From Nitrososphaera sp. (GTDB lineage: Archaea; Thermoproteota; Nitrososphaeria; Nitrososphaerales; Nitrososphaeraceae): a stretch of 64,000 bases of DNA. The translations under genes and the position numbers were made by a program. The stretch is from assembly GCF_013388945.1 (NCBI RefSeq), contig NZ_JACAEH010000001.1:1-64000 (forward strand). Reading direction: 5' to 3'. Position 1 is the first letter of the stretch. The number at the start of each line of letters is the position of its first letter. The notes beneath the pieces are model-generated. The model was not told the DNA's origin and did no database searches. It saw nothing but the letters and a program-made list of their open reading frames with translations. Shown here piece after piece: positions 18,057-33,879 of this stretch.

Positions 18057-18073
18057 GAAGACACCATTTCTCG

Positions 18074-18087
18074 GCTATTATTTAAGC
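18074..18087 (-). promoter_or_regulatory. TATA box for the integrase
   Basis: Minus-strand GCTTAAATAATAGC, with its A/T core 22-29 nt before ATG 18056. It lies at the left end, so in the integrated state it drives only int(N), while in the circle it would drive the whole rebuilt integrase. Confidence 0.7.
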
Positions 18088-18160
18088 AAAATCATCGTAT
18101 CACGCAATATTGAGATGCATGAAAGCCGTTATACGGCGTTTCAGACCGAATATCGGCCAT

Positions 18161-18169
18161 CTTTAAATA
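18161..18169 (+). promoter_or_regulatory. TATA box for the secreted protein gene
   Basis: CTTTAAATA lies 28-36 nt before ATG 18197. Between them is an imperfect repeat of CCACCGGCGGTCGGCCACCG that could bind a regulator. The divergent integrase promoter is about 75 nt away, so 18057-18196 is a two-way control region. Confidence 0.65.
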
Positions 18170-18196
18170 GACCACCGGCGGTCGGCCACCGCCAAA

Positions 18197-18631
18197 ATGA
18201 GAACGTGGAGCTACGTCGCCATTTTTCTGGCTGCGGTTGATCTGCTTACTTTCATTCCACTAACAGCGTATGGAGAGGAGCTAGAGACTGTCATCTTTTT
18301 GACAGGAGACACCTGTCAAGAACAAACTTGGCTTCAAGAAAAACTGCCGGATTATTATGTAGTGTGCGCTAGAGAACCAAACGTCGCCTTTGCTAGAGCA
18401 CATTACTGGGCTTTTGAGCAGTGGTTCTATGTCATCTACGTCCAGACTGGATATGTAGAGTGGTCGAAAGGTCGCTTTGCTGCTGGATATACATACGACA
18501 CCTATTCAGTGTCAATATCGGCTGACTTTGCGATAGAACATGAACGACTTCATCTAGTCTGCGATTGCTTCTTCACTCCAGACGGTCTTCATGGTTCTCC
18601 AGAGACTGGAGCGATAGGCGCAAGGCTCTGA
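18197..18631 (+). CDS. Secreted or membrane-anchored protein with an HExxH motif
   Basis: A 144-residue protein with an N-terminal hydrophobic segment (about 5-24) like a signal peptide. The mature part has HERLH at 115-119, matching the HExxH zinc-protease motif, with another His at 132, and four cysteines (40, 57, 122, 124) that could form disulfides outside the cell. Too short for known gluzincins, so protease activity is inferred from the motif only. First gene inside the element on this strand. Confidence 0.7.
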   Translation: MRTWSYVAIFLAAVDLLTFIPLTAYGEELETVIFLTGDTCQEQTWLQEKLPDYYVVCAREPNVAFARAHYWAFEQWFYVIYVQTGYVEWSKGRFAAGYTYDTYSVSISADFAIEHERLHLVCDCFFTPDGLHGSPETGAIGARL

Positions 18632-18752
18632 GTAGTAGGCTGGCTTCGACGCATCTGAATTATCATTTTATACTTGAATTATTGCGGCTGCAAGGTGCTA
18701 GCGACCATTAGGACACTAGGCCGAGTTGACGTCGTTATGTCAAAGACTGCGA

Positions 18753-18896
18753 TATTCTCGCGGCGGGAGAATAGTTTAAGCCTCGGCTAACCGAGCCTTA
18801 GAATACTTCCACTTTGACAACTAGGCTCTAGTCAGTGGAGCCTATCCATCGCTTCTTATAAGTAAACTTTGGAAAAGAGGTGATAGAAGTATCACC
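18753..18896. other. Cluster of four hairpins (candidate replication origin or structured RNA)
   Basis: The 305-bp gap 18632-18936 has no convincing gene. It contains four clean inverted repeats: 18753-18773 (7-bp stem), 18777-18800 (4+5 bp around one mismatch), 18822-18844 (7-bp stem) and 18879-18896 (7-bp stem, GAAG loop). A TATA-like CTTATAAG at about 18854-18861 sits between the third and fourth. The position just ahead of the regulatory and replication genes fits an origin, a multi-site operator or a non-coding RNA; the sequence does not decide. Confidence 0.5.
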
Positions 18897-18936
18897 CGAA
18901 TTAGTTCCTTAATGTGACTTCTTACACATATTCTCC

Positions 18937-19071
18937 ATGTCTTCATACAAGACAATCAAAGTGTCAGAGCAGACTTACCACAATCTGGCTAGAATGGGGA
19001 CTTTGGAAGATAGTTTTGATTCTGTCATAGACAGGCTTCTGAAGCCCCGAAACATGCAGGAGGTCGCCTAA
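18937..19071 (+). CDS. Small ribbon-helix-helix-like protein, 44 aa
   Basis: The 44-residue product begins with a KTIKVSEQTYHNLARMG strand-helix pattern and continues GTLEDSFDSVIDRLL, matching short archaeal antitoxin-like RHH proteins (VapB/DUF7557 style). It is probably a DNA-binding regulator or antitoxin. The next gene starts directly after its stop. No PIN or RelE toxin follows, so a toxin-antitoxin role is unproven. Confidence 0.7.
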   Translation: MSSYKTIKVSEQTYHNLARMGTLEDSFDSVIDRLLKPRNMQEVA

Positions 19072-19218
19072 ATGGAAGACCCAGAGCGCATAGTCGGAAG
19101 ATATTCACAGCATCCTACTGCCAAAGGTGGCTATATCGCATCTAGTGACAACACAGTCCGCAACGTGATAACCGAACCAGCGACGTCATTCCATCAGCGC
19201 AAAGAGCCGAAGAACTAG
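19072..19218 (+). CDS. Small unknown protein, 48 aa
   Basis: Begins at the base following the RHH gene stop (TAA then ATG) and is probably co-translated with it. A 48-residue, basic, Ser/Thr/Asn-rich product without hydrophobic core or cysteines. Not recognised. It ends 13 nt before the TTG of the coiled-coil gene, and its stop region carries the GGAG used by that gene. Confidence 0.5.
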   Translation: MEDPERIVGRYSQHPTAKGGYIASSDNTVRNVITEPATSFHQRKEPKN

Positions 19219-19231
19219 GAGCAGACCTACA

Positions 19232-19705
19232 TTGGGAATCAAGCATAAGAAGGAACTGCAAGAGTATTTCAAGAAAAGGCAGAACGCATTTCGCGAAATC
19301 CTGCCAGTAGGCGAACTCTATGGAATAGGCCACATCGTTCAGAACCAGATTCATGGTCTTCAGTCGGCTCTAAACCAACTGGAAGAAAGAATCGACGATG
19401 ACACGAAGCTGGAAAATATTCGGCTATTCTTCAGTAGAGGAAGTCTTCATTCGCTGAAGCAGGACGTAGAGAGCATTCTCTCGACTGGCAAACAAGTGCT
19501 GCCGGACTCACTTTCTGAACTCAAAGCCTTCCTAGGTGAGCAGGCGAGAAAACGCTGGGAAGCAGAGCGCGCCGAATACCAAGAAAGGCGGAGACTGGAG
19601 AAGGAGAAAGCGCAAAAGGAAGCTGAAGAGTCAAAGCGTCAACAACAGGATGCAGAGCTAGACAGACTCGGACTCCGGGATATCGTGGCCAAGCTACGGT
19701 CTTAA
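19232..19705 (+). CDS. Coiled-coil protein, 157 aa
   Basis: TTG start preceded by GGAG at 19217-19220. The N-terminal half is helical with no known motif. The C-terminal third (about 105-145) is a strongly charged Lys/Glu/Arg/Gln coiled coil. It lies in a run of same-strand genes ending in the helicase, so a DNA replication or scaffold role is possible. Not recognised. Confidence 0.65.
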   Translation: MGIKHKKELQEYFKKRQNAFREILPVGELYGIGHIVQNQIHGLQSALNQLEERIDDDTKLENIRLFFSRGSLHSLKQDVESILSTGKQVLPDSLSELKAFLGEQARKRWEAERAEYQERRRLEKEKAQKEAEESKRQQQDAELDRLGLRDIVAKLRS

Positions 19706-19715
19706 GGGGACAACC

Positions 19716-19979
19716 TTGTCTACTACTTCTACTAAACCGCAAAGGTGGGGAGTATATCCCTGCCGATTTTGTGGAGAGCCCATTACATTTGACGACCATA
19801 TCATATCCAGACATGGTAATCCAAAAGCGCTGAATATCGATCTAACTATCCATCACTGTCAGACAACTATTCCCTCCAATGATGAGGAATGGGTGCTGGC
19901 TGCTATGCGGGCTATCTTTGCATTCAACAAGAAGCTAAAGCGCTGCACGCTCAAGCTCGTAAGGGAGGATGTGAAATGA
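19716..19979 (+). CDS. Small C2H2-type zinc-finger protein, 87 aa
   Basis: TTG start at 19716. Contains CRFC near residue 16 followed by DDHIISRH, a spacing suited to a C2H2 zinc finger, then an HHC segment. The 3' end overlaps the helicase start by 4 nt (ATGA), so the two are coupled. Likely a nucleic-acid-binding helper of the helicase (inference). Confidence 0.65.
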   Translation: MSTTSTKPQRWGVYPCRFCGEPITFDDHIISRHGNPKALNIDLTIHHCQTTIPSNDEEWVLAAMRAIFAFNKKLKRCTLKLVREDVK

Positions 19980-21688
19980 TGGCGCGGCCTAGCTTTGGAC
20001 CACAAGATGACGCCGAGGTGGCAATCTTGTCGTATTTGAACGACAGTAACCACACTGATTCCGAAAAGAAAGGCGCGCTCGTCGAGGAATTGCTACATAG
20101 ATTCCACATCAAGACTCTGGACGACACAAACGAAGTGTTGTATTATCAAAACGGGATATACCGGACAGGCGCTGAAGCAAAACTCATTCAAGAGCTAGAA
20201 CAGTTGGGCGGTCATCTAATCACCAATCACATGCGTAACGAGGTGCTTGCTTCAATCAAGGCAAGAACCTACGTTTCAAGAGACGAGTTTGACAGGAATT
20301 CAGACATCTTGAATCTTGCAACCGGTCTACTGAGTATTTCGACTGGCCAGTTTAAGGTGCATACTCATGAGTATTTGTCTCTGGCACAGTTGCCCGCCAA
20401 GTATGATCCAAAGGCGACTTGCCCGAATATCATGCGCTTCCTTCGAAGCACACTCGACACAGAACAGTTCAAGGTCGTCGTAAGACTGCTCGGTTACATT
20501 CTCATGCGAAGCACACAATATGAAAAGGCGTTTATGCTGGTGGGCGAAGGAGCAAACGGTAAAAGCACATTCATCAATCTCCTGACAGCTTTCGTGGGAA
20601 GGGAGAATGCCAGCAGTGTATCTCTGCAAGACTTGACACAGGACAGGTTCGCACTGGCCGAATTGCACAAGAAGATGATTAACGTCTTTGCGGACTTGAA
20701 AACCGATAAGATCAGTGACACAGGACACTTCAAGACGCTAGTGACTGGCGACAGAATTCGGGCGCAGAGAAAGCATCAACAGCACTTCTCTTTTGTCAAT
20801 ACTGCTAAGCTCATCTTCAGCGCAAACAGGATTCCAGAAACCGACGACAAAAGCTATTCTTACTTCAGGAGATGGGTCATCATTCCCTTTGGCAAGACAT
20901 TCGAAGGAAGCGATAGAGATGAGCATCTTATCCACAAATTAACGACAGAGCAGGAGCTATCGGGCTTGCTGAACGTTGCGCTAGTAGGCCTGAAACGGCT
21001 AGTCACAGATGGTGGCTTTGAAGACACCGACATCGAAGACATTAGACGGCAATACGAGCTTGGAGCTAGCAAGATTCAGGACTTTATCAATGACCACTGC
21101 CAACTGGACGTCGACAACGATGATCTACGGATAACGACGCTCGACCTACAGGAAGCTTTCTCCAAATACTGTAAGGAGAAAGGAACGGGATACGTAGACA
21201 TCAGAGAGCTTGGCGAGCGCATCAAAGCACTTGGAGTCAGAAAGGAAAGACGGCGAGTGAAAGGTGCTGACAGACCATACTTCTATGTAGGAATAAGCCT
21301 GAAGCCAGACTGTCCTTATGTCCCTATCAAACAGAATACTATCTTGGTATCTGGGGAAAATACTAAGATGCCAGAAGTAGTGGCCGGTCAGATAGGGACA
21401 CTAGGACATAATAATTCACGTTCAACTGGCTATAGTGGCGAGTCGCCAAACTTAAGCAAACTTAAGTCAGAGCCAATCCGTAACAATTTGCACTCAGACT
21501 GTAACACCGTCGAGGCTGGAGAAGTCCTGTCGATGCTTGCAGAAGAGCGACACGACACGTTTGGACCTTCAGATGGTAGTAAATCGAACTCGCCTGGTAG
21601 TATTTCAGAAAAGATCGAATCTTCCTTTGGCCTGACAGACAGAAAGATTACTGCTGTATCGATAAAGCGAAGGAGTTACTATGACTAG
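19976..21688 (+). CDS. P4/D5-type superfamily 3 replicative helicase
   Basis: This 570-residue protein has a D5_N-like region (about 60-175), then an SF3 ATPase with Walker A GEGANGKST (about 189-197), an ADLKTD Walker B region, motif C IFSANRIPE, and a C-terminal winged-helix part; the last 120 residues look disordered. P4-type proteins drive replication of phages, satellites and plasmids. No Toprim or AEP primase domain is visible, so priming must come from elsewhere. ATG 19976 follows GGGAGG at 19962-19967; the frame is open further upstream but overlaps the zinc-finger gene. Confidence 0.9.
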   Translation: MMARPSFGPQDDAEVAILSYLNDSNHTDSEKKGALVEELLHRFHIKTLDDTNEVLYYQNGIYRTGAEAKLIQELEQLGGHLITNHMRNEVLASIKARTYVSRDEFDRNSDILNLATGLLSISTGQFKVHTHEYLSLAQLPAKYDPKATCPNIMRFLRSTLDTEQFKVVVRLLGYILMRSTQYEKAFMLVGEGANGKSTFINLLTAFVGRENASSVSLQDLTQDRFALAELHKKMINVFADLKTDKISDTGHFKTLVTGDRIRAQRKHQQHFSFVNTAKLIFSANRIPETDDKSYSYFRRWVIIPFGKTFEGSDRDEHLIHKLTTEQELSGLLNVALVGLKRLVTDGGFEDTDIEDIRRQYELGASKIQDFINDHCQLDVDNDDLRITTLDLQEAFSKYCKEKGTGYVDIRELGERIKALGVRKERRRVKGADRPYFYVGISLKPDCPYVPIKQNTILVSGENTKMPEVVAGQIGTLGHNNSRSTGYSGESPNLSKLKSEPIRNNLHSDCNTVEAGEVLSMLAEERHDTFGPSDGSKSNSPGSISEKIESSFGLTDRKITAVSIKRRSYYD

Positions 21689-22235
21689 ACGAGTCGAAGT
21701 CCACGTTCCGTCAGTGAGTCTAGCTGGTCACATGTCGTTGTATTCCTTTCAACTGGCCGAAGCAGGAGACGGCTTCAGAATCAAGATCGAACCAGCAAGA
21801 TATCTATCTGACGACTTTAAGGAAAGCCTTCTCATCTCAAAAAGAGTCGCTGAGAAGCTGACTGGCAGACCATTTGAGAGAGACGTCATCATGAAGATGG
21901 AAGAGCCGTCGATGAATGGGAGTAGCGGCTCTCTCATGCGGACGTTAGCGCTGATGTCTCTACTTACTGGAGTATCACTGAATCAAAGAGTGACGGGAAG
22001 CGGTGGAGTAGACACTGAAGGTAGAGTTCTCCCCGTCCTAAGACTTGAAGAAAAGGCCAGAGCAGCAAAGAACGCAGGATTCACGAGCTTTCTTCTGGCG
22101 AAAGGACAGACCGTCGACAGAATGAATGGCATCACCTTCTATTTTGTCGATGATATCGCAGAAGCGTGGCGACTGGCCAGTGGCATTTGCATCAACTGTG
22201 TAAATGGTCGTCACAATGGGAGTGGTTCGTATTAG
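21681..22235 (+). CDS. Lon-like (S16) protease-domain protein
   Basis: This 184-residue protein overlaps the helicase gene by 8 nt. The middle region follows the Lon proteolytic domain: a GSSGS turn with a candidate catalytic Ser at 82, LMSLLTGVSL, a GGVDTEGRVLPVLRLEEKARAAKNAG segment with a candidate Lys at 125, and a following strand. There is no ATPase domain. In Lon the Ser/Lys dyad cuts peptides (known). In an element with a tail-like gene it might mature virion proteins (inference). The match is distant but its order and spacing are right. Confidence 0.7.
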   Translation: MTRRVEVHVPSVSLAGHMSLYSFQLAEAGDGFRIKIEPARYLSDDFKESLLISKRVAEKLTGRPFERDVIMKMEEPSMNGSSGSLMRTLALMSLLTGVSLNQRVTGSGGVDTEGRVLPVLRLEEKARAAKNAGFTSFLLAKGQTVDRMNGITFYFVDDIAEAWRLASGICINCVNGRHNGSGSY

Positions 22236-22278
22236 AATGAAAATACTTCTGTTATTCGGTCAGCGACTATGGAACGAT

Positions 22279-22324
22279 GTCATAGCTATGACGTGCACGT
22301 CATTCCAGAAGGAGGCCTCCTTCT
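22279..22324. promoter_or_regulatory. Array of three overlapping or adjacent perfect palindromes before the tape-measure gene
   Basis: Three perfect inverted repeats fill 46 bp: GTCATAGCTATGAC (22279-22292), TGACGTGCACGTCA (22289-22302) and AGAAGGAGGCCTCCTTCT (22307-22324). The last contains the GGAGG ribosome-binding site directly before the TTG start at 22327. Binding of a dimeric regulator, or RNA folding that hides the ribosome site, would control the downstream gene. Confidence 0.7.
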
Positions 22325-22326
22325 AA

Positions 22327-23631
22327 TTGTCCACCGCTAATGCGGGAGTAGCTTATAGAGTCCAGCAGTTGGGCGCTGAAGGCGTAAGGAATCGTCTCAA
22401 AGAGATCAATTCTGAGTTGAAGGCAGGAAAGCCCGTCACGAAGGAGCTCAAAGAAGAAATCAGAGAGCTTGGAACGCAAGTCAACACCCAGACAAGAGTC
22501 GTTAGGCTGAATGAACAAGCTTGGCGTCAATCGCACAGCACGCTATCTACCGCTGCCAAAATAATGTCAAGTGTCGGCTCGATAGCCCGTGGCGCTCTGG
22601 CCGTGACCACGGCGTGGTCTATTGCTTCAGTCGCTTTTGGAAGAACAAGCTCACAACTCGTCGAAGTGAGAGCAGAAATCGAGCGCACAACTGCCCAGCT
22701 TGCAGACGCCGTAAAGCGTGGTGCTGATCAGCAAACGATATCGGAGCTCCAAGAACGACTTAACGTCCTGAAGGCACAGCAGGAGGAGCTGGCATCAGAA
22801 GAATTTCAGAGCAGGATAACGAATGTCATAAACTTGGTATCGACTCTTGCGATTGGCTTTGGCGGTGCTACACAGATGCTGACAAAGCTCGGTCCACAAC
22901 TGAGCGCCTTTAAGGCTGGCCTGCTTGGTGTTGGTCCTGCCGGTGCTATCGGAGCAGCTGGAGCTAGGACTTTCGGAGCCGCACTTCGTTCAATCTGGGC
23001 GGCACTTGGCCCGATAGGTCTAATCATCATCGGCCTGTCAATAGCCATCCCTCTACTGATAGAACACTGGGACGAGATTACAGCCGCCTTCCAGTCGTCT
23101 CTATCGTGGCTGGACTCGACTTTCCGCCCTGTTTTTGAGAGTATCTGGACAAGCATTCAGGAGACTCTAACTACTGTATGGTCAGGAATTCAAACAGGGT
23201 TTCTGGCCTTCTGGAACGGCATGATTGGTCTAGTTAACGCCGGCGGTCAGGCACTCGTTGATGGTATCAATACCGCCGTCAGTGCTGTCATATCGGCAGT
23301 CAATGCAATAATCGAAGCCATAAATCGTGCCGCAGAATGGACGGGAATCAAGCTTCCGAAGGTAGGCTTCAGTCCTCTGGCGTTTACAGCGATCCCGACG
23401 ATTTCTGCGGCCACCGGCTTCAGCGGAAAGCTCGACAGAGACACACACTTCTTGGCTCATCGTGGAGAGTTCGTGAACGTAACTCCTGCTTCACAAGTAA
23501 GTCGCGGGGGAGGTTCGACACCATCGATTACCGTGAATGTCTACGGAGACGTCTCAGGAGAAGAGCTCGTCGACAAAGTCAGAATGGCCATCAAAGAGAA
23601 TCTGAAGCAGTTGGGATTCACGGGGTTCTGA
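22327..23631 (+). CDS. Tail tape-measure-like protein
   Basis: A 434-residue protein with an N-terminal coiled-coil region (about 15-65 and 110-160), long hydrophobic Ala/Gly/Ile segments (about 165-235), amphipathic tryptophan repeats, and a C-terminal tail PSITVNVYGDVSGEELVDKV typical of phage tape-measure proteins. In tailed viruses it sets tail length and is ejected into the host (known). It is shorter than most, and no other tail gene was recognised. TTG start with GGAGG 8 nt upstream, inside a palindrome. Confidence 0.78.
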   Translation: MSTANAGVAYRVQQLGAEGVRNRLKEINSELKAGKPVTKELKEEIRELGTQVNTQTRVVRLNEQAWRQSHSTLSTAAKIMSSVGSIARGALAVTTAWSIASVAFGRTSSQLVEVRAEIERTTAQLADAVKRGADQQTISELQERLNVLKAQQEELASEEFQSRITNVINLVSTLAIGFGGATQMLTKLGPQLSAFKAGLLGVGPAGAIGAAGARTFGAALRSIWAALGPIGLIIIGLSIAIPLLIEHWDEITAAFQSSLSWLDSTFRPVFESIWTSIQETLTTVWSGIQTGFLAFWNGMIGLVNAGGQALVDGINTAVSAVISAVNAIIEAINRAAEWTGIKLPKVGFSPLAFTAIPTISAATGFSGKLDRDTHFLAHRGEFVNVTPASQVSRGGGSTPSITVNVYGDVSGEELVDKVRMAIKENLKQLGFTGF

Positions 23632-23632
23632 G

Positions 23633-23977
23633 ATGCCCTTCATCTTCTCTTCTGATATTCCTCAGACATGGGACGTAGTCCACACTGAAAGTCGTCATAA
23701 ATACACGATGTATGAACGGCTTACTCGACAAGAAGCACTAGGGATACAGGATCGACGAAAAGAGCTGTCGAAGCTCTTCTATGACATAGAGCACTATACC
23801 AACAGTAAAGAGAAAGAAATTCTCTTGGAGCAATTTCGTGCTATAAATCAGGAGCTACTCACTACGATGGGCTTGGTATTACGAAGATGTCTGAAACTGA
23901 CTGATGAGCAGGTTGACGACATGGAAGTTGAGGAAGCTAGATCGATATTCCTGAAGATGGTGGAGTTCTGCTCATAA
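23633..23977 (+). CDS. Hypothetical protein downstream of tape measure, 114 aa
   Basis: Starts 1 nt after the tape-measure stop, hence coupled. A strand-rich N-terminus (MPFIFSSDIPQTWDVVHTES) followed by a long helical, acidic region. The position behind the tape measure suggests a distal-tail or accessory tail function, but I see no family motif. Confidence 0.65.
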   Translation: MPFIFSSDIPQTWDVVHTESRHKYTMYERLTRQEALGIQDRRKELSKLFYDIEHYTNSKEKEILLEQFRAINQELLTTMGLVLRRCLKLTDEQVDDMEVEEARSIFLKMVEFCS

Positions 23978-24035
23978 AACGTCGCTAAAATGAGATAGAA
24001 TAAACTTATGTATCACTTTTCTACTCTCTTAGAAG

Positions 24036-25139
24036 ATGTCGCAAGGTCGTCTGATTATCGATCAGAAGCTCGTGAAGAAACTAGAATATTCTATCGATGA
24101 AGCCCTAGACGAGCGGAATGAAGAGATCAAAGGAGCAAACAAGTTAGTAATTTATCCAATTGAACTTGGCAATCTCATCCAAGTGGAACGGAAGGACGGC
24201 GCGGCACTTTTTTCAAGCCGCCTTTCTGAGTGTCAGGTAGAAGCAGTGACCGAAACAAAAGGTCGCTTCAAAAAGTCAGAAGACTTGTGGCTCAGAATTA
24301 CATCTGCTTCGCAGGGAAGAATGGCTGGAGAGGTGAGAGTCAATGTTAAAGATAAGGAGATAAACGAAATTTTGAATCAAATTACGATTTTTAGAGCTCT
24401 TGAAAAAGACTACTGGAAGACCATCGAAATCTTCTATTACAACAAAGGTGAACTTACGTCTACAAAAGTTCCTGTTAGAGCGCCAGTTCTGGCTGAAGGA
24501 GAAACCCTACTTTGGTCCCACATTCAGACAAAAGGTATCATCAACAAGCAAGCCGACCTATTCGCAGCCATTACGACTTTCCGAGCTTTCGTCTACGATT
24601 TCCAAGAGCATGACTGTGGCAGGATTTTCCTCCCTGGTGTTGATGAAGTGATCGTTACTGACCAACATCGTGTTTCAGAGTCAAATAGCGGTGGAATGTA
24701 TAGTCGTGGCAGATATGGTGCCGGTGTGTATTCTGGAAGCTCAAGCGGAACAAGTCATACTGTAGGCAAAGTCTCATTCATAGCAGATGGAAAACCCATC
24801 GTCACATTTGGCCCCGTTGCTGATCCTCATGGATTAGCGAGACTGGCCAAAGCTGCTGTGAAAGATATCAAAGAGGCATACAAAGAACTGGAGAAGAGAG
24901 CCAAGTCAACTGAAAAGGAGACCCCCACACAAGGAGAGACTATGGTCGAGATTCCTGCTGCAACGCAATCCACTGTAGTAGAACAGATCATCTGTCCATC
25001 TTGTAAGAACTCAGTTGCTAAAGGTTCGAACTTCTGCAATAACTGTGGTGCGAAGCTTCAATTCATCTGTTCAAAGTGCGGTAATAACAACCCAGAGAAC
25101 TCTAAATTCTGTAACAGCTGCGGATTCACCTTAGGATAG
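24036..25139 (+). CDS. PH-like domain protein with double zinc ribbon (paralog of the host gene at 32413)
   Basis: A 367-residue protein. Residues about 38-285 align by eye with the host protein at 32413-33879: NKLVIYPIELGN versus DKLIIIPIEIGN, TTFRAFVYDF versus TNFRVFFYDF, and GKPIVTFGPVADPHGLARLA versus GKPMVTFEGIEDPDGMAQMA. The C-terminus has two zinc ribbons (CPSC...CNNC and CSKC...CNSC). The role is unknown; PH-like plus zinc-ribbon architectures often act as adaptors. It has its own TATA-like AATAAACTTAT near 23999. Sequence divergence and A+T-richer codons show it is not a recent copy. Confidence 0.8.
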   Translation: MSQGRLIIDQKLVKKLEYSIDEALDERNEEIKGANKLVIYPIELGNLIQVERKDGAALFSSRLSECQVEAVTETKGRFKKSEDLWLRITSASQGRMAGEVRVNVKDKEINEILNQITIFRALEKDYWKTIEIFYYNKGELTSTKVPVRAPVLAEGETLLWSHIQTKGIINKQADLFAAITTFRAFVYDFQEHDCGRIFLPGVDEVIVTDQHRVSESNSGGMYSRGRYGAGVYSGSSSGTSHTVGKVSFIADGKPIVTFGPVADPHGLARLAKAAVKDIKEAYKELEKRAKSTEKETPTQGETMVEIPAATQSTVVEQIICPSCKNSVAKGSNFCNNCGAKLQFICSKCGNNNPENSKFCNSCGFTLG

Positions 25140-25203
25140 TGCGTGTCAAGAATTTTGGCAAACCTTGTGAGAATATTATAGAAGATTCTCATGTATGCGT
25201 AAT

Positions 25204-25213
25204 GGCTTTAAGC
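25204..25213 (+). promoter_or_regulatory. TATA box for the Shedu gene
   Basis: GGCTTTAAGC lies 23-32 nt before the TTG start at 25236, so the defence gene has its own promoter and likely a leaderless mRNA. Confidence 0.6.
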
Positions 25214-25235
25214 CTGATGACAGTAAGCGGGTATA

Positions 25236-26189
25236 TTGGCGACAAAGCCCGCTGAAGAGATACCATGGATTTCCGTTAATAATGTCTTGAAAACGATTCC
25301 CATCAAATCTAATACCACTTGGGCAGAGCTAATCGTCGCTGAGAAGAAGGAAACTAAAGAGAAGTATCTACGTCTGCGACGCTTCAAACAGGCATATAGT
25401 ATCAAGTCTGCTGAAGACTTGGCAAGCATGATAGAGGTTCTTCAACTAGGAGCTCAGGAACTTGGATGGCAGAAAGGTTTGGAGAGTCTATATCAAAAAT
25501 TCACAGATGAAGTCACTAGCCTCAGACAAGCTCGTATCAAAGACAAAGAGCGTATTCAGGAAATGACAAAAGTTCTCTCGGAGCTCCGTGAGACTCAGAT
25601 GAGCCTAGAACTGCCAACCTACAAAGAGCATCTGGCCGAATTCAAACGTCTCATGAAGAATTCCAAGAAGGAACAGGAATTGCAGGAGTTCTTGGAGAAT
25701 CATGTCTGGATGTTTGGCATGGAGTATATCGAGACTCAGTTACGTGGCTTCTCGCAATTTGAATTACCCGGCACTAGGTTCGATTTTCTTCTACAGAGAT
25801 ACGACACATTCTATGACATAATCGAGCTGAAGCAGCCCAAAGTGAATCTGTTTGATGAAAAGCCTTCTGAAGATCAGACGTTGCTGCCTACAGTCGCACC
25901 TTCGAGGAAGACACCGATTTCTCAGGAACTAAAGAATGCTATTTCACAGATGATTGACTATTTGGAAGCCGCAGATGATTGGGCTCCCGGCCTTTTGAAA
26001 CGATATGGTGTCGTCCTACATAAGCCAAAGGGGATAATCGTTATCGGTAGGCGCGAAGACTATGGAAAGGCGATAAAGACGCTGAACTATTACTTCAATC
26101 ACTTCCAAATATTGACATACGATGATATCTACGACCAAGCAAGTGAATTCGTCAAAAGGATAGGAAAACGGAAAGTGCAGAAAAAATAG
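25236..26189 (+). CDS. sduA: Shedu-type antiviral nuclease (SduA, DUF4263)
   Basis: This 317-residue protein has an N-terminal helical/coiled-coil region (about 55-125). The C-terminal DUF4263 nuclease follows: KKEQELQEFLENHVWMFG (about 144-161), PGTRFDFLL with candidate catalytic Asp 183, IIELKQP with Glu 197 and Lys 199, then ELKNAISQMIDYL and KGIIVIGRRED. This is the Shedu pattern of the PD-(D/E)xK fold. Shedu gives phage resistance by DNA cleavage (known). A zinc-finger gene follows after 10 nt. Catalytic residues look intact. Confidence 0.88.
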   Translation: MATKPAEEIPWISVNNVLKTIPIKSNTTWAELIVAEKKETKEKYLRLRRFKQAYSIKSAEDLASMIEVLQLGAQELGWQKGLESLYQKFTDEVTSLRQARIKDKERIQEMTKVLSELRETQMSLELPTYKEHLAEFKRLMKNSKKEQELQEFLENHVWMFGMEYIETQLRGFSQFELPGTRFDFLLQRYDTFYDIIELKQPKVNLFDEKPSEDQTLLPTVAPSRKTPISQELKNAISQMIDYLEAADDWAPGLLKRYGVVLHKPKGIIVIGRREDYGKAIKTLNYYFNHFQILTYDDIYDQASEFVKRIGKRKVQKK

Positions 26190-26199
26190 GTGATATGGT

Positions 26200-26628
26200 A
26201 TGGACTCTACGACGGCAGAATCGCACACGTGTGCTCGGTGTTTCATAGCTTTTGATAAGGAGCCTCGATGCAATGTTGATGTCGGTTTCGTTGAAGAAGG
26301 GGGTATGATGAATGGCCCACTTTGCGATAGCTGCGCCAGCCGTCTGTATGACTGGATAATAGATGGAATGTATGAAGACATGGATAGACGGGAAGGACGA
26401 ACCCCTTCACCTCCGCCCGATTATTTCAAGACCCTTGCTTTAGGGACTTTTCTTGCGACGAACAGTGCTGAAGAAATTAGACTTGGATTGAAGTATCATA
26501 CCACTCATCACTTGACAGACAAGGCTATCCGGTCTGGCCAATTAGACCCCGATTGCTTTTTCTGTAAAATGCTAAGCGAATATGAAATCAAAAAGAATAG
26601 GCAGAGCAAACAGACAAGGCTGTTCTAA
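26200..26628 (+). CDS. Cys/His-rich protein next to Shedu, 142 aa
   Basis: Starts 10 nt after the Shedu stop on the same strand, so probably co-transcribed. Cysteines occur as CARC (about 11-14), LCDSC (about 42-45) and CFFC (about 119-122), with TTHH nearby, suggesting two zinc sites around a helical middle. Not recognised. Context suggests a Shedu partner, target sensor or regulator (inference only). Confidence 0.7.
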   Translation: MDSTTAESHTCARCFIAFDKEPRCNVDVGFVEEGGMMNGPLCDSCASRLYDWIIDGMYEDMDRREGRTPSPPPDYFKTLALGTFLATNSAEEIRLGLKYHTTHHLTDKAIRSGQLDPDCFFCKMLSEYEIKKNRQSKQTRLF

Positions 26629-26802
26629 CTACAATTCCTGAAGTTTGTCAAGAACTTCAGCGATGAGTAGTGCTTCATGTGTCAATTGCTTGTGCTTCTT
26701 CAAGATTCTATGCTTCAGAGTTCGCCTGTAGGTGGGAGCATATCTATTGACTTTGTCGGCCTTTAGGTCTTCAATGAATTTTAGTTCTGCTTTGCTCAGC
26801 AT
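26629..26802 (-). CDS. Small basic helical protein sharing a motif with int(N), 57 aa
   Basis: A 57-residue product beginning LSKAELKFIEDLKADKVNRY and ending with a Lys/Arg-rich stretch and a Leu-rich helix. It shares the order LxKxEL-(F/W)-(I/L)-x(n)-Y-x(3-5)-basic-I-x-KK with the integrase N-terminal fragment, and I recall such segments in many thaumarchaeal proteins. Probably a DNA-binding regulator. The start ATG lies 24-33 nt after a TATA element; the 3' end abuts the convergent 26200 gene. Confidence 0.7.
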   Translation of the reverse strand: MLSKAELKFIEDLKADKVNRYAPTYRRTLKHRILKKHKQLTHEALLIAEVLDKLQEL

Positions 26803-26825
26803 TTTGGTGGTCCCGTGTTATCTCC

Positions 26826-26881
26826 GTATTATAGAAAGATTCCTCTTTGAGTGTTGCGGTTTTTAGCAACAGCTTTATATA
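26826..26881. promoter_or_regulatory. Divergent promoter pair
   Basis: Minus-strand TCTATAATAC (26826-26835) serves ATG 26802. Plus-strand CTTTATATA (26873-26881) serves ATG 26905. Each is 24-33 nt from its start codon, giving leaderless transcripts in both directions. Confidence 0.65.
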
Positions 26882-26904
26882 GACCGTGTTAGGTTGGCCG
26901 TGGC

Positions 26905-27111
26905 ATGACAGCAAGTCAAAAACATGAGGAATTGAGCACTCCAACCCTGCCACAGGGCGCCAGTCGAATGAACTTGCAGAAATTGACCACCGTCGGTGGA
27001 CGAACTGCCACAAGGCTCGCCAGACACCTGGATGGTCCCGGTGGAGCAGTGCAGTTTCAGCAAAGGAAGCAGAACGGAAAGGTTGTCATTGACGTCTACT
27101 TGGTGGACTGA
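26905..27111 (+). CDS. Hypothetical protein, 68 aa
   Basis: A 68-residue product with a polar N-terminus and a C-terminal two-stranded end (VQFQQRKQNGKVVIDVYLVD). No known motif. Supported by a good TATA box at the right distance and by isolation from any competing frame. Confidence 0.6.
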   Translation: MTASQKHEELSTPTLPQGASRMNLQKLTTVGGRTATRLARHLDGPGGAVQFQQRKQNGKVVIDVYLVD

Positions 27112-27160
27112 AGGGGCATGAACTGAGCACTCCGATTCTTTTCTCCACAGGCGATCTTCC

Positions 27161-27358
27161 ATGAGCTGCAAAAATCTTTGTCTGCGAATACCCACTAGAA
27201 CCTCACTTCAAGGTAATTCCTATTCTGGCCAGAACAACTTCAAAGGCTGTATAACCTGTTATTGCGGATTCTTTGGCCTATCTGAAAATTTTTGTCCCTG
27301 CTGTAGAACGAAACTCCGCACGCATTCGCGCCATGCAAAGAATGTGAAGAGGTTCTAA
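27161..27358 (+). CDS. Small thaumarchaeal-type zinc-finger protein, 65 aa
   Basis: The C-terminal half reads C-x2-C-x-C, then ENFCPCCRTKLRTHSR, followed by basic residues. I recognise this as a small zinc-finger type repeated in thaumarchaeal genomes, with a conserved FCPCC-x3-LRT core. Function unknown; likely DNA or RNA binding. The 3' end overlaps the convergent 27355 gene by 4 nt. Confidence 0.65.
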   Translation: MSCKNLCLRIPTRTSLQGNSYSGQNNFKGCITCYCGFFGLSENFCPCCRTKLRTHSRHAKNVKRF

Positions 27359-28011
27359 CGCAACGTAGATTGTTTGCTTTCTTCATCACTTGCCTTCTTC
27401 AATAGAATCCTAGCAAAATCTGACAGCCAGTATCTATCAGAACCGCTCTCATAGTGGATATAGTAATAATCATAATTAGGATCGAGCAGTCCTTCCTTCT
27501 TAATGCGTTGATAGATTCTGCCGTATAGATTTATCTTCTTAGGGCGAGATAGACTCTGGAAGCGACTTTTGACCTCGTCAACTGTGCTTTGCGACGACAT
27601 TCCAAGAAAGGACAAGACGAGATCGAGAACCTTGCGGGACGCCTTCATGTGTTCAAGAAGTCCTTTCAACTCCCGGGCAATTGCCTCATCCTTCTCATCC
27701 GGTGAGAATTTGGCTGATCCGTCTCTTTCGCATTTTAGATGCATTCCGTGTTTTCTTTTGTCGAATAAATGAAATGGAGACGAAGCCAGTCTGTCCATTA
27801 CTGTGCTCTTGGGCAGGCCTCTGAATTGCTTAGTTCTCAATGCAGAATCTCTGGAATATGCTCGTTCGATATCAGCTAGAATCAGGGACTCTGCGAGCTT
27901 GTCCCAATTCCTGACTGCCTTGCCAATTTTTTTCTTGTATGAATCGGCGTATCTTTGTTTCAAGATTCTGGCCAGAATCTTTCGTGTCTTATCTTTTGAA
28001 ACAGAGGCCAT
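27355..28011 (-). CDS. Hypothetical basic protein, 218 aa
   Basis: The ATG at 28011 is favoured over 28020 and 28029 because the minus-strand GGCTAAATAC lies about 25-35 nt upstream. The protein is very basic and helical in the first half and contains a winged-helix-like C-terminal part (INLYGRIYQRIKKEGLLDPN). It may bind DNA. No family recognised. Transcribed against the defence genes around it. Confidence 0.65.
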   Translation of the reverse strand: MASVSKDKTRKILARILKQRYADSYKKKIGKAVRNWDKLAESLILADIERAYSRDSALRTKQFRGLPKSTVMDRLASSPFHLFDKRKHGMHLKCERDGSAKFSPDEKDEAIARELKGLLEHMKASRKVLDLVLSFLGMSSQSTVDEVKSRFQSLSRPKKINLYGRIYQRIKKEGLLDPNYDYYYIHYESGSDRYWLSDFARILLKKASDEESKQSTLR

Positions 28012-28159
28012 TTTACCCATATTATGCAAGACGAGTATTTAGCCTCTAGTGCTTTTTAGCAGAATATGACCGTTTTAAATAAATCCGGCATAATCCATCA
28101 AATCCGGCTTAGTCATCAGGATCGCTTCTTTGTAGTCGACTAAGTTCGTCAGGCAAGGT

Positions 28160-28366
28160 TCAGTAGGGCTTCCTCTTATTTTGGTTCCTAAGCTTCGACT
28201 GTCTTTGTTTTGATGCGGCGCATAGGCTACAGTTCGGATCAGGATTGACAATCTTCAGGCCTGCGCCAACGTGGTCTCTGAAGTGGATTATGTCTGCTTC
28301 CATCGTCGAGAGAATTCTGTCCGCCCGCTTTATTGCGTCTGACAAATCAGAAGACCGCTCACTCAT
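28160..28366 (-). CDS. Hypothetical protein, 68 aa
   Basis: A helical N-terminus (RSSDLSDAIKRADRILSTME), then NPDPNCSLCAASKQRQSKLR, a single CxxC and a basic tail. The start is 48 nt from the divergent SIR2 gene, so the two share the 28367-28414 control region. Not recognised; it could be the regulator of the SIR2 gene (inference from position). Confidence 0.55.
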   Translation of the reverse strand: MSERSSDLSDAIKRADRILSTMEADIIHFRDHVGAGLKIVNPDPNCSLCAASKQRQSKLRNQNKRKPY

Positions 28367-28414
28367 GTTAGAGAAATCTTATAGGTAGCATATTACAGCT
28401 TCGAGTATACTCCA

Positions 28415-29473
28415 ATGAGAATAGCTCTGTTTCTGGGTGCGGGAGCGTCAGTGGCATACGGCAAACCTACAACTCGTGACATCAAGAACAAGCTCCAGTC
28501 CAAATATCGCACGAATAACCCGCCGACTGACGCTAGGAGCATTCTCTTCTCATTCCTAGATAACTATCATTTTAACGACATCGAAGATGTCTTACAATCG
28601 ATATATGAATGGGATCGCCTTCGGGATAGTCACGCCATAAAATATCTCTCAGATGAGAAGAGAACGGCGTATATCCAAACACCTAGTCATCAAGTGCCTT
28701 TTCCTACATTTCTAAAACAAGTGAAAGAGGTTAAGGAAATAATAGAAGACGACATCTTTGAGAACTATTCTTGGGATAGGACGAAGAATGGCATTCTGCT
28801 GGAAATCATGGCCAGACTGATCGCTGTGGTAGGAAAGTCTGGAGAAGCGCACATTTTTACGACTAACTATGATAGAGCTGTCGAACAATTCTGCATTTTG
28901 AATTCGGCAGCATTCAAACTGATTGATGGCTTTGGCCCTGATTCTGGGCTCGGTATGTATACTTGGACGAACAACACATATCTCCAACAAGACAGAGAAA
29001 ATGATAGAAAATCAGTATATCTATACAAACTGCATGGTTCTCTCGATTGGAAACGAAATTCTGATGGTATTATCGTGAAGACTGGAATAGAGAGAAGAAC
29101 CAACGATCCTAACATTTCGGAGAATATCGCAATAATGCCTACCATCTCGCCGAAGGATGGTGCAGAGAAAGAGCCGTTTAAGACTATACTCCAACACTTC
29201 TCACGTTTCATGAATGAAGCCGATGTGTGCATAGTCATAGGTTATTCTTTCAGAGATGCCCACATTAACGAGGTTTTCAGCTCTTTCTTGTCGCATAGTG
29301 GACGGTTGATTGTAGTCTCGCCAAACGCCAAAGCAGATGTCTTCGGGAACCTCTATGGTCTGCAGCTTCATGAAGACAGAATTATTCCGAATATCGTTCC
29401 CGTAGAGCAATACTTGACAGAGACGACAATTCATGAGATAATAAGTGAGATTAGCAAGCATTTGCAGAAGTGA
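28415..29473 (+). CDS. SIR2-domain protein, probable antiviral NADase
   Basis: This 352-residue protein begins with the nucleotide-binding FLGAGASVAYGKPTTRD (about 5-21) and has FTTNYDRAVE (about 148-157), a KLHGSLDW catalytic-site segment and IVIGYSFRDAHIN near the end, all typical of SIR2-like proteins in defence systems. These deplete NAD+ on infection (known for several systems). No fused effector or sensor domain is seen; the 148-residue protein downstream is the only candidate partner. TATA-like CTTATAGG near 28378. Confidence 0.85.
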   Translation: MRIALFLGAGASVAYGKPTTRDIKNKLQSKYRTNNPPTDARSILFSFLDNYHFNDIEDVLQSIYEWDRLRDSHAIKYLSDEKRTAYIQTPSHQVPFPTFLKQVKEVKEIIEDDIFENYSWDRTKNGILLEIMARLIAVVGKSGEAHIFTTNYDRAVEQFCILNSAAFKLIDGFGPDSGLGMYTWTNNTYLQQDRENDRKSVYLYKLHGSLDWKRNSDGIIVKTGIERRTNDPNISENIAIMPTISPKDGAEKEPFKTILQHFSRFMNEADVCIVIGYSFRDAHINEVFSSFLSHSGRLIVVSPNAKADVFGNLYGLQLHEDRIIPNIVPVEQYLTETTIHEIISEISKHLQK

Positions 29474-29527
29474 ACTCGACTCTCAAAAGATACAAGTATA
29501 AGAAGTCAATCATTCTTTCACTATCGA

Positions 29528-29974
29528 ATGTCTGACTTCACGAAGGAGGCTGGAGCACTTGAGCGCCTAAGGCAGTTAATGGGTCATGAACAAGATGGCA
29601 GCTCCCAACTAGCTGCGGAAGTGCAAAAAGCCGTTGCAGATGATTTTCTCAAGGCTCCGAGACGGACGCTTACACGAATATACGACAAGTTGGACATCTT
29701 AAAGGCTGCCGGACTTGACGTCGGTCTGCATGAAATGAGACATCACCTATTCGACAAGCAACTAGAAGACGCAACACACCAACTAAAGGAAGTAGCTGGT
29801 AAGGCGGACACAACTGAAGGTGAAGACTGGATCGAAATGCACGTTGATGCCTATCAAGACTACCTCTTTACCATATTATACATCAATGCGCTGGAACAGG
29901 AAGTCGACTTACAGTGCAGAAACTACATCAAAATGGCGGGGAAATTGTTAGGCGATGAAACTCACGGGTCATAG
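29528..29974 (+). CDS. Helical protein downstream of SIR2, 148 aa
   Basis: The product is almost entirely helical with no cysteines or enzyme motif; HEMRHHLFDKQ around residue 70 is the most distinctive segment. It has its own TATA element AAGTATAAG (29494-29502), 26-34 nt before the ATG. It follows the SIR2 gene by 54 nt. Not recognised; a sensor or inhibitor of SIR2 is possible (inference). Confidence 0.65.
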   Translation: MSDFTKEAGALERLRQLMGHEQDGSSQLAAEVQKAVADDFLKAPRRTLTRIYDKLDILKAAGLDVGLHEMRHHLFDKQLEDATHQLKEVAGKADTTEGEDWIEMHVDAYQDYLFTILYINALEQEVDLQCRNYIKMAGKLLGDETHGS

Positions 29975-29980
29975 TCTAGA

Positions 29981-31090
29981 CTAGTCGTCAGGACCGCCTC
30001 TCTCAGTGCGCTTCCAGTCAGGATACTCGCCGTGAACGTAAGTCAATAACTCGTTGGTGTTTTTGCCACCGTGTTTTCGCACAGACTTTGCCAACGCTCC
30101 CCTCTCCACGGCGTCCAGACCGGTATAGCACAGTCCCGCTACCTTCTTGCCGAGTTCGGTAAGCCCTGTGACGTGACCATCAACATACAATAGCCCAACC
30201 TTCACCAACTGCCGCACTTTCTCTTCTAGCCCGATACTCCACGGGCCTCTTGGATATGGAACAAAATCATGATGCAGATAACCGACTTCTTCTTTATCGA
30301 CTAGAAATGCAAGCTTGTGCAGCATTAACTTTGACTCCATTGGCTTGTCGTGAGCAAAGTAGACGGCCAGTAGCCATTCTCCCTCTTTATCTCCCGGCTG
30401 CAGATGGTCATAGTTCTCGTTTATTTTCTGAGACAGGAATAATGGAACAGTCCGCCGTTCTGCCTCATTTATTACGTATAGCCGGTCGACCATGAAGGAG
30501 AGGGGCTTCCATACCTTTTCAGCCTCTTTTGCCACTAGAGGTCGTATGTGATCTGGGATGTTTTCCACCAGATAGATGTGCTCATAAAGCGATCCCAAGC
30601 TCTCTTTGTCAAGCTCAGGAAAGTGACGATGCGTGACGTCTATTACCGCACGTGTCAGAGCGGAAAGCCTCTGTGTAGTTGGAATGGGCAGGCCGAAGTT
30701 TGCCGGTAGTTTCTTACGCCATGCGTCCTCAGGATTCATTCTCGTTGGTGGGCTTGGTTCTATTTGGAAAGCTGGGAAAACCGCCACGGTCCGTCGCAAG
30801 TCTTCTATCCACGGCTCGATTCTCCCACGCCAGGCGACAACTCCCGTTAAGGTGATGTGCGGTCTGTCAGTCGGTTTCAATGTTGGGAATACAACTGCTA
30901 GTCGGTCGGAGATCAGTCTCAGCTGCGGTAGGACATGTGGAGGAGGTATGATACATACCGAGTTTAGACTGACCGCCTCCAGAGTCAAAGGACATAATGA
31001 ATTACATTCGCAGGCTATTAGCCTATCGTCAATAGCCGAGTATCGTTTCCTGTAATCGTGATAGTATAGACCTGATCCGCTTAATTTCAT
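29981..31090 (-). CDS. 2H-phosphoesterase domain fused to a Panacea/SocA-like domain
   Basis: The open frame is 369 residues. The first half matches 2'-5' RNA ligase-like 2H enzymes: NSVCIIPPPH (about 43-52), H78-I-T80, and H171-I-Y173 as the second His motif. The second half (about 230-369) has LMLHKLAFLVDKE, PYPRGPWSIGLEEKV, a wing with TGLTELGKKVA, and ELLTYVHGEYPDWK, like phage-associated Panacea/SocA-type domains. 2H enzymes open cyclic nucleotides or RNA phosphodiesters. ATG 31090 overlaps int(C) by 62 nt; TTG 30988 is a plausible later start. Confidence 0.7.
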   Translation of the reverse strand: MKLSGSGLYYHDYRKRYSAIDDRLIACECNSLCPLTLEAVSLNSVCIIPPPHVLPQLRLISDRLAVVFPTLKPTDRPHITLTGVVAWRGRIEPWIEDLRRTVAVFPAFQIEPSPPTRMNPEDAWRKKLPANFGLPIPTTQRLSALTRAVIDVTHRHFPELDKESLGSLYEHIYLVENIPDHIRPLVAKEAEKVWKPLSFMVDRLYVINEAERRTVPLFLSQKINENYDHLQPGDKEGEWLLAVYFAHDKPMESKLMLHKLAFLVDKEEVGYLHHDFVPYPRGPWSIGLEEKVRQLVKVGLLYVDGHVTGLTELGKKVAGLCYTGLDAVERGALAKSVRKHGGKNTNELLTYVHGEYPDWKRTERGGPDD

Positions 31091-31883
31091 CTGGAAAATC
31101 TGGCCTGAAGTAATGACGAGCGAAGATGGTGCTTGGTGTTCTACCTTGAAGCAAGTCTATTAATTCGCTCTCAATACCAGACATCCTGAGATGCGTGGAG
31201 AAGATTTTCCTACAGTATCCCATATGCATGGCTAGGCCCCGTTCTTCAAGCACCATCCTCAATGCTGTATAGCTGTGAATTCCTGCCTTTCTAGCCACAT
31301 TGATAATCGAGTCGTCGACTGTGCTGATGTATGCCTTCTTTGTCCTTCTGATAAAATCGGACTTGAACCGATAATGCTCAAGCACCATCGACTCCTTCTT
31401 CAGATAGTTGTCGAGCTCGTTCTGGACGTAGTAGATGCTCATAATCGCTTCACCCGGTCTGAGCCCAGTCAGTGTGTCGTAGAGAAGCATGTTGGCGTAG
31501 GAAGCAGGTATCTTGGAGCAGGCGTCTTTGAGCCACTCCATCATCACTTTATAATTTGCGTCATTATTGATGATGGCATGGAATGCTTCAAGTCCGTCAC
31601 TATTAGACCACTTTAGCTGATGTCGTTCTTTCAGCATCTCCCACATGTCATAGCATCCCATGAACTTTGAGAGCGCCGCCAATGCCTTCATAGCGTGTTT
31701 GCGTTTGTCGTCAGACAGCTGCAGAAGCTCCTGAGCGTTGGTCTCCGCCAGAACATGAGCATACCGACGAGCATAAGAAAACGTATCATACGCTGTCTTT
31801 TCATTCTGGTTCTGTAGCAGATACGTCTTGAAGTTCTTCCAGAATTCATCAGCTTTCTCCGGTGGTGTAGTCCGGTTAAGCAT
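31029..31883 (-). CDS. int(C): catalytic fragment of the partitioned tyrosine integrase
   Basis: A 284-residue fragment from ATG 31883, with the frame open upstream through attR to 32018 and closed by TAA in the tRNA at 32028-32030. It contains tyrosine recombinase motifs: TGLRPGEA (Arg I), CRKIFSTHLR (Arg II with His), LLQGRTPSTI and the nucleophile in ARHYFRP. Fused through the repeat with int(N) it gives a gene of 395 codons including the stop. The enzyme would catalyse integration at tRNA-Glu. No promoter of its own is evident apart from possible read-through from the tRNA gene. Confidence 0.9.
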   Translation of the reverse strand: MLNRTTPPEKADEFWKNFKTYLLQNQNEKTAYDTFSYARRYAHVLAETNAQELLQLSDDKRKHAMKALAALSKFMGCYDMWEMLKERHQLKWSNSDGLEAFHAIINNDANYKVMMEWLKDACSKIPASYANMLLYDTLTGLRPGEAIMSIYYVQNELDNYLKKESMVLEHYRFKSDFIRRTKKAYISTVDDSIINVARKAGIHSYTALRMVLEERGLAMHMGYCRKIFSTHLRMSGIESELIDLLQGRTPSTIFARHYFRPDFPDEIKRIRSILSRLQETILGY

Positions 31884-31969
31884 TGAGCACGGTTCAAGGC
31901 GGCTTACTGTATTTGGTAAGGTTGGAAAACTACGATCTTGGCCAGATTGTTGGGAATGTGTGAATGAGA

Positions 31970-32018
31970 GAAAAGTGCTCCGGCCGGGATTTGAACCCGG
32001 GATCTCCGCCTTGAGAGG
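31970..32018. repeat. attR: right 49-bp copy of the integration repeat
   Basis: Direct repeat of 17813-17861. It comprises the 3' 43 nt of the intact tRNA-Glu gene plus 6 nt beyond its end, and it also lies inside the open frame extending int(C) upstream. The element supplies this 3' part of the tRNA, so the tRNA stays functional. Confidence 0.93.
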
Positions 32019-32051
32019 GCGAAATGCTTAACCGGACTACACCACCGGAGC
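31976..32051 (-). tRNA. tRNA-Glu (anticodon CUC)
   Basis: 76 nt on the minus strand fold into a full cloverleaf: acceptor GCTCCGG pairing with CCGGAGC, a D-arm, a CGCC/GGCG anticodon stem around loop CTCTCAA (anticodon CTC), and T-arm CCGGG-TTCAAAT-CCCGG. Discriminator A; CCA is not encoded. No intron is apparent. A TATA-like CATTTTTATG lies about 25 nt upstream (near 32074-32084). It is the integration target of the element. Confidence 0.95.
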
Positions 32052-32333: not shown

Positions 32334-32412
32334 TTTGCAGGCGAAAAAGAAATAATCTTGTCCACACATTTGATTGTGCCTTTGCAAACAGGCAGACCTT
32401 TGGAGGTTCATC

Positions 32413-33879
32413 ATGCCCACTAGGGGCACGATTACGGTCCACGCTCCAAAGGAAGCCGCCTACGACGCGCTGTTGCAGGCGTGCAGAGACGTGGACGCAA
32501 AGGTCAAGATTGCAGACAGAGACACCTTTACAATCGACGGCGATTCTGGGACAATGTGGCTTCAGAACAGGTTCTCCTTCCGGTTCCACGCCCGGCTCTT
32601 GGACAGGTACGACGGCGTCATCGTGGAAGCCTTTGACTTTTCAGACAAAGAGCCGGACAGGCGCTTTCTTGAAAAACTGTTTGAAAAGCTGGGCAAGCGC
32701 GTGGAGGTGTTTACGCCCGAGTATGCGGTAGTGGAATACATGGAAAGCGCCCAGCAACCTGCATCCTCATCGGCAACTCCTCTGGGCCAGGACGCGCCAG
32801 CACCTCTAAAGGACACTCTCGACATACCTCGTCCGGGCAGGCTGATGGTAAACGAGGACAAGGTCCCGAAGCCGGCCTTTTCAATCAAGGCCTACGGCGG
32901 AGGAAACGAGGGGGGCGCCGACAAGCTGATCATAATCCCGATAGAGATAGGAAACAAACTTCTTTTCGTAAACGGCAAGAACCTCTACCTGGAGATCCCG
33001 ACGGGCTCCATAACCAGCGTAGAAAAATACTCGGAGACCGAAAAGGGTTTCACAGGTGCAAAGAAGAACAGCAAGATCCTGATTTCCTACGACGACGGCA
33101 ACCCAAACTCGGTGGCCTTTGACGTCGACGACGACAAGGTAGACGAGCTGGTAAACGAGATAGATTTCATGCGCCTGTACGAGCGCCAGTACTTTGATGC
33201 AATAGACTTTGAATATCGTCAGGGCAACGAGTGGCACAAGAGCAAGCTGTACCCGCGGACCCTGTACCTTGCCGGTGGAGAGCAGGTGCTCTGGATGGAC
33301 GACGGCTCTAGCTGGCTAGGCTTTGGCAGCTACAAGTGGGTGAAAGCCCTGACAAACTTTAGGGTCTTTTTCTACGACTTTAAGCTGCACCAGTGCAACT
33401 CGCTCTCGCTTCCGCTGGTCGAGTCAGTGGTGGTCAACAACAAGAGGCGCGAGTCGCGGTTCCAGCACCAGGGAGAGACGCGGAGCAGGACCGGCGGCGG
33501 GCACTATTCGTACTCGTACAGCCAGGGCTCGGGGCAGTCAGAAAGCGTCACAATAGGCGACGTCCTTTTCATGCACGCCGGAAAGCCGATGGTCACCTTT
33601 GAAGGCATAGAAGACCCTGACGGCATGGCCCAGATGGCGCGCTCTGCGATAGACCAGTCAAAGAAAAACACGCGCGCGACCGGCACGGCTGCGCAAAAGA
33701 CGGCAACGCTGCCTTCGCAGCCGGAGGGCATCCAGTGCAAAAAGTGCCAGTCTTACAACCCTGAAGGCTCGGCTTTCTGCAACAGCTGCGGGGAAAGGAT
33801 GAACTTTGTCTGCGGCAGGTGCAGGCACGAAAATCCAGACGGCTCCCGGTTCTGCAACCAGTGCGGACAGGCGCTCTGA
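32413..33879 (+). CDS. PH-like domain protein with double zinc ribbon (host paralog)
   Basis: ATG 32413 has GGAGGT 5 nt upstream (32402-32407), choosing it over the longer open frame. The 488-residue product has an N-terminal alpha/beta domain (about 1-115), a linker, a PH-like region (about 165-400) with IIIPIEIGN, TNFRVFFYDF and GKPMVTFEGI segments, and two C-terminal zinc ribbons (CKKC...CNSC, CGRC...CNQC). The element gene at 24036 shares the last two parts but lacks this N-terminal domain. The function is unknown. Confidence 0.82.
   Translation: MPTRGTITVHAPKEAAYDALLQACRDVDAKVKIADRDTFTIDGDSGTMWLQNRFSFRFHARLLDRYDGVIVEAFDFSDKEPDRRFLEKLFEKLGKRVEVFTPEYAVVEYMESAQQPASSSATPLGQDAPAPLKDTLDIPRPGRLMVNEDKVPKPAFSIKAYGGGNEGGADKLIIIPIEIGNKLLFVNGKNLYLEIPTGSITSVEKYSETEKGFTGAKKNSKILISYDDGNPNSVAFDVDDDKVDELVNEIDFMRLYERQYFDAIDFEYRQGNEWHKSKLYPRTLYLAGGEQVLWMDDGSSWLGFGSYKWVKALTNFRVFFYDFKLHQCNSLSLPLVESVVVNNKRRESRFQHQGETRSRTGGGHYSYSYSQGSGQSESVTIGDVLFMHAGKPMVTFEGIEDPDGMAQMARSAIDQSKKNTRATGTAAQKTATLPSQPEGIQCKKCQSYNPEGSAFCNSCGERMNFVCGRCRHENPDGSRFCNQCGQAL

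Follow-up and report, generated by a model that had tools for sequence, protein, structure and literature searches.

The locus described here raises the question of whether a Shedu nuclease can have a constant zinc-finger partner. Characterised Shedu proteins are single genes that combine N-terminal sensing with C-terminal cutting (PMC12904381; PMC12137116). In the window, by which we mean the whole 64,000-nucleotide stretch of Nitrososphaera DNA under analysis, a gene of this family is followed closely by one for a small protein that a sequence-only reading had put forward as such a partner:

25236-26189, + strand: Shedu nuclease, SduA_C domain at residues 144-298
26188-26194, + strand: Shine-Dalgarno sequence AGGTGAT, beginning inside the Shedu stop codon
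26200-26628, + strand: 142-residue protein with three CxxC pairs, starting 10 nt after the Shedu stop

Our preferred reading, to which we give a probability of roughly 0.7, is that a complete SduA nuclease is carried as provirus cargo and acts alone, and that the 142-residue protein is probably co-translated with it without being a standard Shedu component, its gene being a fast-evolving or recently acquired gene of the carrier element.

From a TTG start, the reading frame of the nuclease runs open for 317 codons, in-frame stops lying close upstream. Its product matches the Pfam family SduA_C (PF14082, formerly DUF4263) over positions 2-158 of the 159-position model and scores 59.9 bits, the cut-off being 27; 17 PADLOC SduA models match it as well. 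The profile search thus bears out the earlier proposal of an intact Shedu protein, and the three candidate catalytic residues then named (D183, E197 and K199) are where they were said to be. When the protein is aligned with four distant Shedu proteins (from Roseomonas, Halobaculum and the archaea G541 and G170 of its own phylum), D183, E197 and Q238 are invariant, and K199 is replaced only in G541, by Glu. The protein shares with the family a C-terminal PD-(D/E)XK-type nuclease (D183, E197-x-K199, Q238); its N-terminus is unrelated, this being the part that varies between Shedu types. It differs in its distance from the nearest Shedu proteins found (just 20-31% identity), in an N-terminus in which Pfam recognises no domain, and in its archaeal, provirus-like carrier. 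No close relative was found in the genome contigs or viral contigs searched, and phmmer gave no match among PDB chains. An AlphaFold2 single-sequence model, of too low confidence (pLDDT 38.6) to speak to the nuclease fold, has a mostly helical N-terminal region, where the sequence-only reading had placed a coiled coil.

Two characterised homologues suggest how such a protein could work. Escherichia coli EcSduA (Loeff et al., Cell 2025, as summarised in PMC12904381) likewise combines an N-terminal region and a C-terminal PD-(D/E)XK nuclease in one protein; it is a tetramer whose N-terminal clamp binds DNA ends and which nicks at a fixed distance. Action at DNA ends would be expected here by analogy. 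Vibrio cholerae VcSduA has a nuclease domain of the same family and is carried by a mobile island, its catalytic Lys is needed for defence, and its N-terminus is a GHKL ATPase, in contrast to the N-terminus here, which is free of Pfam domains (PMC12137116). By analogy, the N-terminal region would sense DNA of competing viruses or plasmids, the C-terminal domain of the nuclease alone would then cut that DNA, and the resident element and its host would be protected. The 142-residue protein would be translated from the Shedu message, presupposing co-transcription, and would probably bind zinc.

The pair is cargo of an integrated element, a point which the sequence-only reading missed:

17813-32018: integrated provirus-like element of 14.2 kb (direct repeats, GC, empty site in congeners)
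17813-17861: left attachment repeat (3' half of tRNA-Glu)
19889-21688, + strand: D5/primase-type helicase (PHROG 864 'DNA primase', E 1.7e-97)
22327-23631, + strand: tape-measure-like protein (weak PHROG tail tape-measure matches; homologues adjoin orf114 homologues in G008 and G011)
23633-23977, + strand: orf114, conserved neighbour of the tape-measure-like gene (homologues in G008, 32%, and G011, 36%, also in G119)
31029-31883, - strand: integrase, adjoining a tRNA (PHROG 5127, E 7e-10; 57% identical to one in G015)
31970-32018: right attachment repeat, overlapping tRNA-Glu 31975-32051 (- strand)

Both ends carry a perfect direct repeat of 49 bp that corresponds to the 3' half of tRNA-Glu, and GC drops between 17 and 32 kb, from 0.55-0.58 outside the element to 0.44-0.50 within it. 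Two congeners (G014 and G015) have the tRNA-Glu site without the element, with the left and right flank genes in the same order around the tRNA gene and, on the left, other sequence amounting to about 3 kb. None of the integrase, helicase, Shedu and 142-residue protein genes occurs between the flanks at this site in either congener, where the sole match to an element gene is the host's own zinc-ribbon relative. The attachment repeats, the GC drop, the integrase and the empty site in congeners together lead us to regard 17813-32018 as an integrated element. Since no terminase-like or capsid gene was seen in it, the element is possibly a provirus of a reduced or satellite type. The host is an ammonia-oxidising archaeon, as its genome holds archaeal AmoA (profile PF12942; PF02461, also tried as an AmoA profile, was uninformative).

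Kin elements show how the nuclease is distributed. The genomes compared were this one and 200 relatives. Of these 201, 36 contain relatives of the helicase, while SduA_C is rare and exceeds the cut-off in only three, namely this genome, G008 and G170. Within the family, two of 70 genomes have it (this genome, G000, and G008), and both genes sit in related D5-helicase/tape-measure elements beside orf114. The provirus of G008, a member of the same genus, encodes a D5 helicase (43% identical), a tape-measure-like protein (34%) and the orf114 homologue, together with a terminase-like gene; we found no attachment repeats for it. Its SduA_C gene (57618-58769 of contig C1; 49.8 bits) adjoins the orf114 homologue on the opposite strand, at the matching end of the tape-measure module, reads ELE where the present protein reads ELK, and is too divergent to be detected with the present protein as query. 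That the SduA_C genes of two kin elements differ strongly yet occupy equivalent positions indicates, from sequence comparison of two cases (n = 2), that the spot beside orf114 is possibly an exchangeable site for defence cargo. A kin element in G011 has the tape-measure-like and orf114 genes without Shedu, and no SduA_C gene was found in that element or in genomes G020 and G119, which hold further kin; the nuclease is sporadic cargo. Among viral contigs, a scan with the tape-measure alignment gave one weak locus and a scan with the helicase gave none.

Defence genes borne by phages often serve the carrier's own life cycle, and the nuclease could in the same way act in DNA processing or in superinfection exclusion of near relatives instead of in general host defence. 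Its position next to the tape-measure module in two kin proviruses fits this idea. On the other hand, the kin in G011, G020 and G119 do without SduA_C, which implies that the nuclease is dispensable for the element's life cycle, and other Shedu genes were found on plasmids or in ordinary chromosome. We therefore treat a life-cycle role as a tentative alternative, rather unlikely on present evidence, and keep to defence cargo as the preferred reading.

As for the gene behind the nuclease, the sequence-only reading described it accurately as encoding a Cys/His-rich protein of 142 residues. The protein has seven cysteines and four histidines, with CxxC pairs at C11/C14, C42/C45 and C119/C122. By chance, such an ORF would start within 20 nt with P ~7e-4, and three CxxC pairs would arise at the given composition with P ~0.0015. 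A spacing of 5 nt separates the 7-nt Shine-Dalgarno match from the ATG; no other gene of the element has one as long, and matches of at least 6 nt occur at 1.7% of random sites. Because of these odds and the Shine-Dalgarno sequence, we regard the ORF as a probable gene whose product is translated from the Shedu message; codon usage also favours its frame, weakly. A strong Shine-Dalgarno sequence that overlaps the Shedu stop suggests coordinated expression, and with it a possible functional link. The 10-nt gap itself is ordinary in this element: the junctions in the same-strand run 19232-26628 measure 10, -91, -8, 91, 1, 58, 96 and 10 nt, so that five of the eight are gaps of at most 10 nt or overlaps.

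Searches for relatives of the 142-residue protein bear on partnership. No homologue was found in the genomes of 200 relatives, in GTDB contigs, IMG/VR or phages, or in PHROGs, NCBIfam, PADLOC or PDB; plasmids likewise gave no homologue, their sole match covering 30% at E = 0.5. The 397 other genomes of the phylum contain no homologue at a meaningful score. Three matches there (E 0.003-0.007) cover 46-66 residues, one of them broken by stops, and were not counted as homologues. The Endonuclease VII-type zinc finger (PF02945) reaches 13.8 bits in the protein, below its cut-off of 23.6 (E 0.056). A low-confidence AlphaFold2 single-sequence model (pLDDT 46.6) has a CxxC, a beta hairpin and then a second CxxC where a helix begins, which is the order of elements in a treble-clef finger.

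The surroundings of other Shedu genes point the same way. None of seven further loci (G541, G170, G008, Roseomonas, Halobaculum, Calothrix and Rhizobium), the kin provirus included, has a Cys-rich gene next to Shedu. Two long overlapping Cys-rich ORFs, unannotated there and with one CxxC each, lie in the surroundings of the Roseomonas and Halobaculum genes. The suggestion of a constant zinc-finger partner, which was to be given up if the pairing failed to recur in other genomes, is consequently not sustained: the 142-residue protein is an orphan in every collection searched, and both the homologue searches and the seven loci agree with a single-gene Shedu that has no constant neighbour. As the nearest Shedu proteins are only 20-31% identical, a partner confined to near relatives would escape notice.

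A narrower form of partnership would be a two-gene variant of Shedu, in which the zinc protein binds the nuclease as a sensor, a DNA-binding subunit or an inhibitor. The shared strand, the short gap, the Shine-Dalgarno sequence that begins in the Shedu stop and the treble-clef order of the low-confidence model would all suit such an arrangement. However, no homologue or conserved pairing turned up anywhere searched, short gaps are usual in this element, and the G008 provirus carries its SduA_C gene without the 142-residue zinc protein. We consider this variant improbable, and slightly more so in its specific version of a co-translated, element-specific zinc protein that sets the target of the nuclease or restrains it. 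An element-specific accessory role for the protein is possible. The zinc-finger partner would have been the surprising part of this locus and is unsupported; Shedu itself is a known family, and what the locus offers is the placement of Shedu nucleases in provirus-like elements of ammonia-oxidising archaea, a little-sampled host group in which antiviral defence is little studied.

Compatible with a nuclease that acts alone is the view that the 142-residue protein is an unrelated small protein of the element, such as a regulator, an anti-defence protein or a virion component, and a neighbour of Shedu by chance. Its C-terminus reads H-x3-H-x14-C-x2-C, the cysteines lying within DPDCFFC, and is followed by a basic tail. 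Among 4033 ORFs from the fetched loci, one other has a similar end, and it does not lie beside Shedu:

28160-28366, - strand: orf68b, in the same element, away from Shedu

Kin elements without Shedu also hold small CxxC proteins. Compared with such proteins of the elements, the 142-residue protein gave shuffle P values of 0.25, 0.008, 0.044 and 0.015 in four comparisons over short stretches, 0.015 being that for the orf68b alignment. The likeness to orf68b is short, and it was spotted post hoc; coordinated translation with Shedu, which is likely, also speaks against mere coincidence. Still, the shared sequence feature hints at a small zinc module that the element uses apart from Shedu, and on balance we find the unrelated-protein view plausible, somewhat better than even. 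Across orf68b and the 142-residue protein, the common pattern, likewise noticed post hoc, can be written as H-x3-H-x13/14-C-x2-C, with [DN]P[DN] before the cysteines and a basic tail behind them.

Further genes of the element include these:

24036-25139, + strand: double zinc-ribbon protein (Pfam zinc ribbons; 32% identity to host gene 32374-33879)
28415-29473, + strand: SIR2_2 domain protein (Pfam 52 bits; PADLOC SIR2 E 8.6e-28)

The host gene akin to the zinc-ribbon gene lies just past the right attachment site, and this resemblance between the two sequences suggests gene exchange between element and host. The SIR2_2 gene probably serves defence as well. A 148-residue ORF starts 54 nt past it (28415-29974 for both, + strand), and the two genes together possibly form a second defence system. 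A 184-residue protein (21681-22235, + strand), whose gene overlaps the end of the helicase gene by 8 nt, matches the Lon protease C-terminal-like family PF05362 at 28 bits; a stand-alone domain of this type is unusual for a provirus. Finally, the integrase gene opens with codons (31857-31884) that match the 5' half of tRNA-Glu (32023-32050) in inverted orientation, perfectly over 28 bp; this tRNA gene is the element's own target.
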